From Halobium salinum (GTDB taxonomy: Archaea > Halobacteriota > Halobacteria > Halobacteriales > Haloferacaceae), in NCBI RefSeq assembly GCF_026586625.1, contig NZ_JAODIW010000004.1, positions 1 through 64,000 on the forward strand: a stretch of DNA of 64,000 bases, written 5' to 3'. Numbering within the stretch: the first letter of the stretch is position 1; each line of letters starts with the position of its first letter. The notes under the pieces are model-generated. The model saw nothing but the letters and a program-made list of their open reading frames with translations, did no database searches and was not told where the DNA came from. The translations under genes and the position numbers were made by a program. This document shows positions 33,910-38,051 of this stretch, piece after piece.

Positions 33910-34149
33910 TCAATCCTCACCGTCGGCTCCGTTTCTGACCCGCTCCATCACCTGCACGAGCAGGTCGCGCTCGAACATGTCCGCGGGCAACGACGCGAAC
34001 CAGTCCGCCTCCTCGATGTCCTCGTCCGGTTCGCCGAGGTCCTCACCGATTTCGGTCGTCTCGGAGGCGGCGCCGAACAGCACGACCCGGAACGAGAGGC
34101 GGTCGCCGCCGTGGGTGATAGCGTGTTCGGCGACGGCGTGCGGGCGGCG
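33910..34149 (-). pseudogene. C-terminal remnant of a Nudix hydrolase
   Basis: The frame encodes LSFRVVLFGAASETTEIGED, then EDIEEADWFASLPADMFERD to a TGA at 33910. This resembles the last ~75 residues of haloarchaeal Nudix hydrolases, where a strand reading 'vLFgA..ett' is followed by an acidic segment and 'eI.eA.WF..LP'. The catalytic Nudix box (GX5EX7REUXEEXGU) should lie just upstream but is absent. The frame there runs into Arg/Ser/Pro-rich sequence and then the menA promoter. I infer a 5' truncation, possibly from the rearrangement that built this patch. A short functional protein is less likely. Confidence 0.58.
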
Positions 34150-34160
34150 CGAGAACCGAC

Positions 34161-34168
34161 CTTTTACG
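34161..34168 (+). promoter_or_regulatory. TATA-like box of menA
   Basis: The element cttttacg is centred 29 nt before the ATG at 34194, giving a leaderless start. Confidence 0.6.
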
Positions 34169-34193
34169 CCGACTCCGCCCCGAGCCCCGGGTA

Positions 34194-35135
34194 ATGAGCA
34201 CGCAGAACGTCTCGCGGACGAAGGCGTGGCTGATGGCCGCCCGGCCACAGACCCTGCCGGCGGCGGCCGCCCCGGTCGCCGTCGGAATCGGTCTCGCCCT
34301 CGCCGACGGCGTCTTCGCCGCGCTCCCGGCGCTGGCGGCGTTCGTCGGCGCCGCCCTCATCCAGGTGGGGACGAACTTCGCAAACGACTACTACGACGCG
34401 AAACAGGGCGCCGACACCGAGAACCGCGAGGGGTTCACTCGCGTCACGGCCTCGGGCCTCATCGACGCCGCCGAGGTCAAGCGCGCGATGTACCTCACCT
34501 TCGCGGCCGCGATTCTCGTCGGCACCTACCTCGTCTCCGTCGGCGGCGTCCCCATCCTCGTCGTCGGGTTGCTCTCGGTCGCCTCCGGCATCGCCTACAC
34601 CGGCGGCCCGTACCCGCTGGGCTACCACGGCCTCGGCGACCTGTTCGTCTTCGTCTTCTTCGGCGTCGTCGCCGTCACCGGCACCTACTACGTCCAGGCC
34701 GCCTCGGTCGTCGCTGACACGTTCCCCGTCGGAATCCCGCCGGGGACGCTCCCGCTCCTCGCCGTCCTCGCGAGCCTCCCCGTCGCCGCCATCTCGACGA
34801 ACATCCTCGTCGTCAACAACGTCCGGGACAAGGAAGAGGACGCGACGACCGGCAAGCGCACCCTCGCCGTGCGCTTCGGCTACGGCGTCGCCCGCGCGGA
34901 GTTCGTCGGCCTGCTCGTTCTCGCCTACGCCGTCCCGGTGGCTCTTCTCGTCTTCGACCGCTTCGAGTTCGGTCTCCCCGTCCTTCTCCCGCTCCTGACG
35001 CTTCCCTACGCCGCACTCGTCACCAAGACGATGCTCACCGAAACCAAGGGCACCGCACTCAACCCCGCGCTGGAACAGACCGGCAAGCTCCTCGCCGGGT
35101 TCTCACTGCTCTTCGCGGTCGGGCTGGCGATTTGA
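34194..35135 (+). CDS. menA: 1,4-dihydroxy-2-naphthoate prenyltransferase
   Basis: This is a 313-residue UbiA-superfamily membrane enzyme that attaches the prenyl tail to dihydroxynaphthoate. The two Asp-rich diphosphate/Mg sites are [14 protein letters not shown] (~63-76) and [20 protein letters not shown] (~205-224). About eight or nine hydrophobic segments are visible. The start ([20 protein letters not shown]) is typical of MenA, and position beside menC supports that role over other UbiA functions. The ATG has a TATA-like box 29 nt upstream. Its stop precedes a 71-bp palindromic element. Confidence 0.94.
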
Positions 35136-35139
35136 TAGC

Positions 35140-35210
35140 GGTTATCGTAGCCGGACAAAGATTCTCGCCCGACGTCGGGCGAGAATTCTATGAAGGCCTA
35201 CGATAATCCC
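35140..35210. repeat. 71-bp imperfect palindrome with a perfect 26-bp core
   Basis: The core ATTCTCGCCCGAC (35161-35173) and GTCGGGCGAGAAT (35174-35186) is a perfect palindrome with no loop. Outside it, GGTTATCGTAGCC (35140-35152) is complementary, with single-base slips, to GGCCTACGATAATCC (35195-35209). It fills the 55-bp menA-menC gap and overlaps the beginning of the longest menC frame. Confidence 0.75.
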
Positions 35211-35216
35211 TATGAA

Positions 35217-36383
35217 ATGCGCATCGGCGCACACTTGGTCGACCGCGAAGTCCGACTGCGTGAGTTCTCCCTCCCGCTCCGGTCACCGCTCGGCACCGCG
35301 AAGGGGGAGATGACCGAGCGTCGCGGACTGTTAGTCGAGCTACGCGGCGAGCTCGAAACGGGCGACGAAGTACGAGGGGTCGGCGAGGCGACGCCGCTCC
35401 CACCGTGGACGGAAGGGTACGAGGAGTGCTTGGCGACGTGGGTCACACTTCGGGACGCCGCAAACGGCACCGTTTCGGATGGGGACGAGAACGAGGTCGA
35501 TATCGACGGTGTGCCGCCGGCCGCCCGTCACGCGATGAACCTCGTCGGCGCCGACGCCTCGGCTCGGTACGCCAAACGTCCGCTCGCGGCGTGGCTCGCC
35601 GACCGCACGGGGGACTCCGGCGGCTCCGATGCCGCCGCCGAAGTCCCCGTCAACGCCACCGTCGGCGACGGGTCGGTCGAGTCCACGGTCGAGGAGGCCG
35701 AATCCGCCGTCGTAGACGGGTTCGACTGCCTCAAACTGAAGGCCGGCGCCCGCGACCTCGATGCGGACCTCGACCGCTGTCGGGCCGTGCGCGAGGCCGT
35801 CGGCGACGACGTGGCTCTCCGGGCCGACGCCAACGGCGCGTGGAGTCGCGACGAGGCCGAGCGCGCGGTCGACGCCCTCGCGGCCCTGGACTTCGAGTAC
35901 GTCGAACAGCCGCTCCCGGCTGACGACCACGAGGGGCTCGCTGCGCTCCGCGGTCGCGGCGTCGGAATCGCGCTCGACGAGTCGGTGAACGGGCCGAATA
36001 CGTGGCCCGACCCCGTCCGGGAGTTCGCCGACGTGGTCGTCCTCAAACCGATGGCGCAGGGTGGCCCGACACGCACCGTCTCCGTCGCCCGTCGCCTCCG
36101 GGCGCAGGGCGTCACACCGGTCGTCACCACGACGGTCGACGCCGTCGTCGCCCGGACCGCCGCGGTCCACGCCGCGGCCGCGATTCCGAACGTGCCGGCC
36201 TGCGGGCTGGCGACCGGCGACCTGCTCGCCGAAGACCTCGCGGCCGACCCGGTCCCCGTCGAGGACGGTCGGGTTCGGGTGCCCGAGGGGCCGGGGCTGG
36301 CGGGCGACGCCTTCGACAGGTTGGTCGGCGACGACTCCGCCGGCGGTGGCTCGGCCGGTGGTGGTTCGGTCGGCAACGACTGA
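35217..36383 (+). CDS. menC: o-Succinylbenzoate synthase
   Basis: This 388-residue enolase-superfamily enzyme dehydrates SHCHC to o-succinylbenzoate. Catalytic landmarks are the lysine pair in CLKLKAG, the metal ligands in ALRADANGAW, YVEQPLPA and IALDESV, and the second lysine in VVVLKPMAQGGP. The N-terminal capping domain starts REFSLPLRSPLGTAKGEM. A Gly/Ser-rich tail (DDSAGGGSAGGGSVGND) is unusual. The frame is open from an ATG at 35190, but those first codons lie in the palindromic element. The ATG at 35217 has a TATA-like aattctatg 28 nt upstream, so I prefer it. Confidence 0.9.
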   Translation: MRIGAHLVDREVRLREFSLPLRSPLGTAKGEMTERRGLLVELRGELETGDEVRGVGEATPLPPWTEGYEECLATWVTLRDAANGTVSDGDENEVDIDGVPPAARHAMNLVGADASARYAKRPLAAWLADRTGDSGGSDAAAEVPVNATVGDGSVESTVEEAESAVVDGFDCLKLKAGARDLDADLDRCRAVREAVGDDVALRADANGAWSRDEAERAVDALAALDFEYVEQPLPADDHEGLAALRGRGVGIALDESVNGPNTWPDPVREFADVVVLKPMAQGGPTRTVSVARRLRAQGVTPVVTTTVDAVVARTAAVHAAAAIPNVPACGLATGDLLAEDLAADPVPVEDGRVRVPEGPGLAGDAFDRLVGDDSAGGGSAGGGSVGND

Positions 36384-36437
36384 CCCCGACCCGGAACGAC
36401 GCTCCGAAGGTCGGCGCCGCGTGGCGATTCGAGCGAA

Positions 36438-36445
36438 CCTTTTAG
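36438..36445 (+). promoter_or_regulatory. TATA-like box of the acyl-CoA ligase gene
   Basis: The element ccttttag is centred about 32 nt before the ATG at 36474. Confidence 0.5.
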
Positions 36446-36473
36446 GTGGCGTCGTCCATTGTCAGGGACGACC

Positions 36474-38051
36474 ATGGGAAACCTCGTCACCAACGTCGCG
36501 GACGCGGCCACGGAACATCCCGACCAGACCGCCCTCGGATTCCAGGGCGACGAGTGGAGCTACCGTGACTTCTGGGGCCAGACGGGCGCCTTCGCGTCCG
36601 GACTCGCAGAGCGCGGGTTCGACGCCGGCGACCGGGTCGCCGTCTACCTCCCGAACCTCCCGCAGTTCGTCGTCGCCTTCCACGGCACCCTGCGAGCCGG
36701 CGGGGTCGTCGTCCCGATGAACCCCCAGTACAAGTCCCGGGAGATAGAACACCTGCTCTCCGACAGCGGGGCAGAGGTCGTCGTCGCGCTCGCCGACCTC
36801 GTGCCGTTCGTCGAGGAGGTACGCGACGAGACTGACGTGGAGCACGTCGTTACGGTCGGCGGCGAGGCGGACGCCGGGACGCCGTTCTCCGAGTTCGTCG
36901 GCGACCCCGAGTTCGAGACGGTCGAGCGCGCGGACGACGACCTCGCCTGTCTCCCCTACACGTCGGGGACGACCGGCCAACCGAAGGGCGTGATGCTCAC
37001 CCACGAGAACCTCGGCTCGAACGCCGAGCAGTCCGCGAGCATCGTCCCCGACGGCATCAGGCCGGGTGACAAACAGCTCGGTGTGTTGCCACTGTTCCAC
37101 ATCTACGGCATGACCGTCGTGATGAACGCGACGCTCTTCGGCGGCGGCGCGTACTACCCGCTCCCCTCGTGGGACGCGGAACAGGCGATGGGACTGGTCG
37201 AGGAGGAGGAACTCACGCTGATGCACGGCGTCCCGGCGATGTACAACGACGTCATCAACCAGGAGCGCGCCGAGGAGTTCGACCTCTCCTCGCTCCGGAT
37301 GTGTGGCGTCGGCGGCGCCGGCATTCCCGTCGAGGTGCTCCGGCGCTTCGAGGAGCTGTACGACGTGCAGGTGTTCGAGGGGTACGGCCTCACCGAGACC
37401 AGCCCGGTGACGCACTTCAACAGCCCCACCGAGGGTCGCCGCGTCGGCTCCATCGGGAAGGTGCTCCCCGGCATCGACGCGCGAATCGTCGACGACGACT
37501 TCGAGACGGTGCCGCCGGTCGAGCGCGGTCCCGTCGACGAGGACGCGGTCGACCTGGACGACATCACGGGCGAGCTCGTCGTCACCGGCCCGAACGTGAT
37601 GAAGGGGTACTACAACCTTCCCGAGGCCGACGAAGGGGCGTTCAGCGAACACGAGGGGAAGCGGTGGTTCCACACCGGCGACCTCGGCTACCACGACGAG
37701 GACGGCTTCTTTTACGTCGTCGACCGCGAGAAGCACATGATTCTCACCGCGGGCTACAACGTCTACCCGCGGGAAGTCGAGGAGCTGCTCTTCGAACACG
37801 ACGCGGTCGCCGACGCCGCCGTCGTCGGGATTCCGGACGAGCGACGCGGCGAGACGGTGAAAGCCTTTGTCGTCCCCGTTCCCGGCTCCGACGTGACTGC
37901 CGAGGAAATCAAACAGTACTGCCTGGACAACCTCGCGGAGTACAAACACCCCCGCGAGGTGGAGTTCGTCGAGGAGCTCCCCCGGACGACGACCGGGAAG
38001 GTCCAGAAGTTCGAGCTCGTCGAGCGCGACCAGGGCCAGAGCGGGCAGTGA
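36474..38051 (+). CDS. AMP-forming acyl-CoA ligase (possible o-succinylbenzoyl-CoA ligase)
   Basis: This is a 525-residue ANL-superfamily enzyme that activates a carboxylic acid through an acyl-AMP to a CoA thioester. The P-loop is PYTSGTTGQPKGVMLTHENL. Further motifs are FEGYGLTETSPVTHFNSPTE, HTGDLGYHDEDGFFYVVDRE, GYNVYPREVEELLFEHDAVA, and the C-terminal catalytic lysine in RTTTGKVQKFEL. Its position after menC suggests MenE, which would fill the remaining step between menC and menB. However, it is longer than typical bacterial MenE and is translationally coupled to an enoyl-CoA hydratase, which also fits fatty-acid degradation. I therefore leave the symbol open. Confidence 0.85.
   Translation: MGNLVTNVADAATEHPDQTALGFQGDEWSYRDFWGQTGAFASGLAERGFDAGDRVAVYLPNLPQFVVAFHGTLRAGGVVVPMNPQYKSREIEHLLSDSGAEVVVALADLVPFVEEVRDETDVEHVVTVGGEADAGTPFSEFVGDPEFETVERADDDLACLPYTSGTTGQPKGVMLTHENLGSNAEQSASIVPDGIRPGDKQLGVLPLFHIYGMTVVMNATLFGGGAYYPLPSWDAEQAMGLVEEEELTLMHGVPAMYNDVINQERAEEFDLSSLRMCGVGGAGIPVEVLRRFEELYDVQVFEGYGLTETSPVTHFNSPTEGRRVGSIGKVLPGIDARIVDDDFETVPPVERGPVDEDAVDLDDITGELVVTGPNVMKGYYNLPEADEGAFSEHEGKRWFHTGDLGYHDEDGFFYVVDREKHMILTAGYNVYPREVEELLFEHDAVADAAVVGIPDERRGETVKAFVVPVPGSDVTAEEIKQYCLDNLAEYKHPREVEFVEELPRTTTGKVQKFELVERDQGQSGQ

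Follow-up and report, generated by a model that had tools for sequence, protein, structure and literature searches.

A probable 77-bp palindromic mobile element with a 3-bp target duplication at the menA stop codon of Halobium salinum, and related copies in other Halobacteria

Background

The closest described counterparts of the element reported here are SMR-A and SMR-B of Haloquadratum walsbyi, which are about 80–110 bp long, have prominent inverted ends and no coding capacity, and occur in many copies; in the available part of their description, no matching transposon is known for them, they make no target duplication, and they insert into other mobile elements (PMC3119063). The same source, to the extent available, describes haloarchaeal MITEs, whose terminal repeats are related to known transposons (PMC3119063). 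In bacteria, GTAG-tagged REPs are short extragenic palindromes which, according to the accessible portion of their description, can supply a TAG stop to a neighbouring ORF (PMC3733652).

The present element lies between menA and a menC-like gene of Halobium salinum, in a stretch of 64,000 nucleotides that was analysed as a whole and is referred to as the window. Insertions of the IS1031 type (IS5 family) make 3-bp TNA duplications, and in this respect the element is similar to them; unlike for that type, no IS1031-like element or IS5-family transposase with the present ends was found (0 of 30 PF01609 loci). With haloarchaeal MITEs it shares inverted ends, a target duplication and the lack of a transposase, and three features by which MITEs are recognised, namely terminal inverted repeats, a fixed 3-bp duplication and many dispersed copies with no transposase gene in them, were found. 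It differs from haloarchaeal MITEs in that the search for a parent transposon sharing its ends found none, in being unusually short, and in that its 78-bp class is almost wholly palindromic. The likeness to SMRs, as far as these are described in the available text, extends to size, inverted ends, lack of coding capacity, lack of a parent found and many haloarchaeal copies, but the 3-bp duplication and the gene-end targets set the element apart from them, by description and not by sequence; among 223 copies, gene ends and intergenic sites predominate. Compared with the REPs of the accessible description, the present elements are longer, duplicate their target, mostly do not carry the GTAG tag and are archaeal. 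No published description of this element family was found in the open-access literature searched.

Results and discussion

The palindrome in the window

The features of the locus, with coordinates in the window, are as follows.

34194–35135, plus strand: menA, 1,4-dihydroxy-2-naphthoate polyprenyltransferase, 313 aa (TIGR00751, 189.5 bits; NF004751, 374.6 bits; both above cut-off)
35133–35135, plus strand: target duplication TGA, left copy, which doubles as the menA stop codon
35136–35212, no strand assigned: probable palindromic mobile element, 77 bp (TAGCGGTTATCGTAGCC...GGCCTACGATAATCCCTA), 84% identical to another copy elsewhere in this genome
35136–35150, plus strand: left terminal inverted repeat TAGCGGTTATCGTAG, read from the sequence
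35161–35186, no strand assigned: perfect palindromic core, 26 bp, ATTCTCGCCCGACGTCGGGCGAGAAT, 0.006 expected by chance in 64 kb
35198–35212, minus strand: right terminal inverted repeat, reading TAGGGATTATCGTAG on the minus strand, an exact match in the terminal-repeat search
35213–35215, plus strand: target duplication TGA, right copy
35217–36383, plus strand: menC-like gene of the enolase superfamily from its likely native start (MRIGAHLVDREVRLREFSLPLRSPLG) (Pfam MR_MLE_C, 161.5 bits)

The original prediction had pointed to a 71-bp imperfect palindrome at this junction, with a perfect loopless 26-bp core that was not expected by chance and was nested in outer complementary arms, and had suggested that it may be a small inserted element. 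All of this was borne out, with the correction that the unit is slightly longer, running over 77 bp and flanked by TGA on each side. For perfect palindromes with arms of at least 13, the arm length of the core, the chance expectation at the base composition of the window is 0.006 per 64 kb, and the runner-up perfect palindromes in the window measure 16 bp (arms of 8). The outer arms were found at 35142–35150 (TTATCGTAG) and 35198–35206 (CTACGATAA), and the nested inverted repeat ranks second in length within the window (spacing of at most 100). As single-stranded RNA, the region 35133–35220 folds with -43.5 kcal/mol (z -7.6), while a search of 34000–36500 against Rfam gave no match up to E 1. 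The view of an inserted element gained from additional copies, found both in this genome and across many Halobacteria, from the 3-bp target duplication and from the empty junction in relatives. Taken together, the feature is very probably an insertion at the menA stop, with a 3-bp duplication, of a non-autonomous element that lacks a transposase and can be called a very small MITE or a small mobile repeat.

The menA–menC junction

As had been described, the element fills the gap that opens at the menA stop and closes shortly ahead of menC, and the ATG at 35190, with which the longest menC frame begins, lies inside it. The downstream gene is likely to be menC, an identity that rests on similarity and position and is only likely since the NCBIfam o-succinylbenzoate synthase models match the protein below their cut-offs, whereas the Pfam enolase C-terminal domain is found above its own. 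Comparison of the junction in close relatives had been proposed as a check, with conservation of the palindrome there as coding sequence counting against the proposal. A menA query against 60 relatives matched 59, and 30 loci were examined, the window's own included; in all 29 others the element is absent between menA and menC, and so is the palindrome as coding sequence. In many relatives the menA stop overlaps or almost touches the start codon, as in three loci that read TGA-G-ATG (L316, L339 and L340), and by eye the menC proteins of these three align with that of the window starting at its ATG 35217. This argues that the frame from 35190, which is longer by the nine codons MKAYDNPYE, carries codons derived from element and duplication, and that the native menC start is likely to be 35217, judging by the aligned proteins; the overlap of the element with the first menC codons is an accident of an in-frame ATG within it. 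An automatic start call at 35190 would append nine residues encoded by the mobile element to the menC product.

Excising 35136–35215 from the window leaves GCGATT-TGA-A-ATG-CGC, which presumably represents the site before insertion. By landing on the menA stop codon, the element would have widened the distance from menA to menC by 80 bp and left menC preceded by a strong hairpin and by an in-frame ATG (35190) that is spurious. It is plausible that a hairpin in this position leads to weaker translational coupling or to partial termination.

Copies and distribution of the family

A search of the 4.46-Mb genome with the junction, a check also proposed at the outset, returned a second good copy on another contig, with 84% identity over 84 query bases. 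This copy follows a short-chain dehydrogenase (SDR) gene at its 3' end, and the TGA stop of the gene is in the same register as the menA stop. Other traces listed in this genome were weak relics only, and a search for the ends with two mismatches allowed gave 8 matches against 9 in the reversed control and thus added no further copies. Among 170 genomes of the same family, 20 matched by sequence search and 26 by covariance model at E <= 0.01, where scoring covered no more than 27 candidates in each genome and several genomes reached this limit, so that copy numbers are minimum values; the alignment had initially lost 15 of 51 loci as duplicates or partial, and L050, L044 and L045 were then removed from it (alignment A1). 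At the level of the order, 38 of 392 genomes, belonging to 20 of the 95 genera, were positive at E <= 1e-4. When both ends were sought at 50–78 bp spacing in 84,980 species genomes, 75 stretches were obtained, all titled as haloarchaea or euryarchaeal metagenome bins, and viral contigs yielded either none or what we read as low-GC chance matches.

The family has inverted ends of about 15 bp (TAGGGRTTATCGTAR) and a typical length of about 78 bp. By their paired ends, 223 distinct copies were found, leaving out those less than 300 bases from the edge of their locus and those whose two ends together had over 5 mismatches; they span 73–109 bp (search window 70–112 bp) and fall into two size classes with common ends, one of 76–80 bp that is almost wholly palindromic and one of 95–102 bp with a non-palindromic interior, besides a few copies of 103–109 bp. 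In the longer class, here called the 99-bp class (L200, L201, L205 and others), the interior CGAAACC...TGTGTCTCGGTTC...AAACTATGAAC is conserved, non-palindromic and common to several genera, and is therefore not mere filler. The element appears to have been mobile recently in some lineages, since four copies within one genome (G070) differ by at most one base. A member of the 99-bp class also occupies an apparently identical site in two species (L165 and L166 in G024 and G026), which indicates that some insertions outlive speciation.

Two further forms were observed. Copies of 160 bp with proper TCA duplications (L096, 3861–4020; L051, 1004–1163) appear to combine a 78-bp element with a second short repeat, which is unrelated to it and starts TATAGTAGCGTTTGCAAC. 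A variant with ends close to TACGGTTTATTGTAA and the same TGA/TCA-type duplication was seen at five loci (L066, L069, L072, L141 and L145).

Target site and duplication

In the window, the element is framed as TGA|element|TGA. After 22 of 141 copies had been dropped as not near full length, the flanking 3-mers were identical in 81 of the remaining 119, against 0–7 at ten other offsets. Over the 223 distinct copies, an exact 3-bp duplication is present in 151, with TGA in 66, TCA in 61, ACT in 6, TAA in 5, TTA in 4 and nine others; TGA, TCA, TAA or TTA thus make up 136 of the exact duplications, and TGA or TCA 127. The 3-mers stand in direct repeat (TGA...TGA, TCA...TCA) and are therefore not an extension of the palindrome. 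The target consensus is ACTSAG(T), where S is G or C, and when aligned on TGA the insertions have A C T G A G in common. Among TSA insertions, C precedes the 3-mer (position -1) in a fraction of 0.91 at stop codons and 0.88 elsewhere, compared to 0.51 at 569 element-free TGA stops, and G is found at +3 in 0.70 and 0.60, respectively, compared to 0.33 at the same control stops. The target is therefore read at the DNA level and a stop codon is not required. Two observations count against this picture: at the site in the window, TT-TGA-AA, the C and G that flank TGA in the consensus are missing, and 72 of the 223 copies have no exact duplication, which we tentatively put down to decay.

Insertion at stop codons

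Exactly at a predicted gene stop stand 97 of the 223 copies, and 2 lie inside a coding region. Considering only CTSAG insertions with duplication (n = 72), 43 are at stops, 29 at other noncoding sites and none in coding sequence, while unoccupied CTSAG control sites of the same loci (n = 889) comprise 65 at stops, 305 at other noncoding positions and 519 coding. Between stop and other noncoding sites, the contrast (43/72 insertions against 65/370 controls) gives a Fisher P of 1.5e-12 over loci that are partly related by descent and not independent, and corresponds to odds of a stop codon about sevenfold those of other noncoding CTSAG sites. The genes behind these statistics come from our own small codon-usage predictor, which misses genes, so that the 305 noncoding control sites are probably too many; were half of them coding, the odds would by our estimate still differ about threefold. 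One case independent of this predictor is found in a related family, described below: on plasmid pHH400 of Haloarcula hispanica, a copy at 263 kb abuts the stop of a CPBP protease gene annotated in RefSeq, and the TCA duplication is this stop read backwards.

The orientation relative to the gene is random (78-bp class: 37 same, 35 opposite, one tie; 99-bp class: 6 same, 11 opposite). In genome G070, a histidine-kinase gene ends on TAA and is followed by the element and a TAA duplication, and the orthologues in the four closest relatives within the genus are all without the element. Random orientation and absence in orthologues both argue against a conserved terminator. The target is often a stop codon, given that one of its strands reads TGA and that genes in these genomes commonly stop on TGA, and insertions at stops would survive because the duplicated stop leaves the gene intact. 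The simplest reading of the bias is therefore survival of harmless insertions, with selection as its presumed cause; a direct preference for gene ends is a possible alternative source.

Alternative explanations

The original prediction had also considered an operator or a protein-binding cruciform that provides a TATA-like aattctatg to menC. A regulatory site of this kind, evolved in place at the operon, would agree with the strong hairpin directly before menC and with the loopless 26-bp core, which is typical of dimer sites. Similar units, however, stand beside unrelated genes in many genomes, a direct 3-bp duplication flanks the element, and the junction is empty in 29 of 29 relatives, so that next to no probability can be assigned to such an origin. 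The sequence, the aattctatg motif included, goes with the element wherever it is inserted, and in relatives menC starts on the menA stop or right beside it, without such DNA; none of operator, cruciform and promoter was upheld. If gene ends instead retained the family by selection, as a transcription terminator or a 3'-end RNA element, the many copies at stop codons and the strong fold of the window copy would be accounted for, and the duplication would be the stop codon mirrored in the palindrome. A mirrored stop would read TGA...TCA, whereas the 3-mers are direct; furthermore, insertions that are not at stop codons show the same target and duplication, orientation is random, and orthologues lack the element, all of which makes a terminator very unlikely.

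Maintenance of the hairpin by compensatory change was considered as well and gained no support, as cross-arm pairing shows hardly any excess (0.635 of cells pair against 0.630 after partner shuffling; ungapped register, 116 distinct 78-mers), which also counts against a terminator, in a test that is weak because copies with an odd core are misaligned in this register. The single pairs at positions 7/72 and 22/57 do show double changes. An archaeal REP spread by a RAYT-type Y1 transposase, through a single-strand hairpin mechanism, would fit a palindrome with GTAG near its ends. Single-strand Y1 transposition is not known to make a target duplication, whereas the 3-bp duplication seen here is clear. 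The ability of REPs to give TAG stop codons to neighbouring ORFs is also in favour of this origin, but in the accessible part of their description REPs measure 20–40 bp (PMC3733652), against 77 bp here, and most aligned copies carry GTAA rather than GTAG, which leaves a REP highly improbable.

Possible mode of transposition and search for a parent

For the favoured reading, a non-autonomous inserted element, the ends and the duplication lead us to infer a transposase acting in trans in a staggered-cut, cut-and-paste mode. Such a transposase would recognise the inverted ends, and a 3-bp staggered cut at the palindromic-like ACTSAG(T) sites would duplicate TSA, or less often TAA or TTA. Where the target coincides with a stop codon, the duplication would keep the host gene ending on the same TGA, and the insertion would be harmless and could persist.

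By exact terminal repeat, no transposase-bearing element with these ends was found in the 170 family and 392 order genomes, which are overlapping sets searched non-exhaustively; 42 of 45 further exact terminal-repeat sites (40 additional loci) were the ends of short elements. Several loci have equal 3-mers at 636–4264 bp spacing, which we read as neighbouring short elements or chance pairs. Of 84 DDE_Tnp_1 (PF01609) places in 6 genomes, 30 loci were inspected, and in none are the ends present as a pair on either side, and the ends of repeated IS copies did not match those of the element; a repeated transposase family in one genome (G269) ends in AGGGTGTCATAGAA. An autonomous parent was likewise not found in the viral contigs or on the plasmids searched.

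A sister family

Other genomes of the order contain a sister family, the one represented on pHH400, with a length of 78 bp, different ends (TACTATCGGACGTAA) and the same inner core (AGATTCTCGCC...GGCGAGAATCT). Its duplications are TCA, TGA, TAA or TTA, at the same target as in the main family. That two families with different ends have the same 78-bp length and core suggests that the core, besides the ends, may be read by the mobilising machinery. The sister family occurs at 26 places on one replicon of Natribaculum breve, and several copies within genome G345 are identical. Contig C1 of G345 has twelve near-identical copies in a stretch of about 1 Mb, which makes G345 a promising genome in which to seek the active transposase.

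Conclusions

The insertion in the window is an ordinary one at the menA–menC locus, yet it is one of a widespread element family of Halobacteria. As a tentative and rather unlikely extension, the ultra-short mobile palindromes of Halobacteria may have evolved stop-codon-preserving insertion as a safe-harbour strategy, in which a transposase with the TGA-containing target ACTSAG(T) duplicates the stop and transcribed gene ends are possibly favoured directly. The family explains a class of palindromes at haloarchaeal gene ends that might be misread as operators, terminators or promoters, and such elements lead the annotation of start codons astray, as for menC here. It also poses a testable question, namely which enzyme moves a nearly pure hairpin of 78 bp, and whether stop codons are chosen by it or are merely where insertions survive. 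The sister copy on a plasmid of Haloarcula hispanica makes this question approachable in a laboratory organism.
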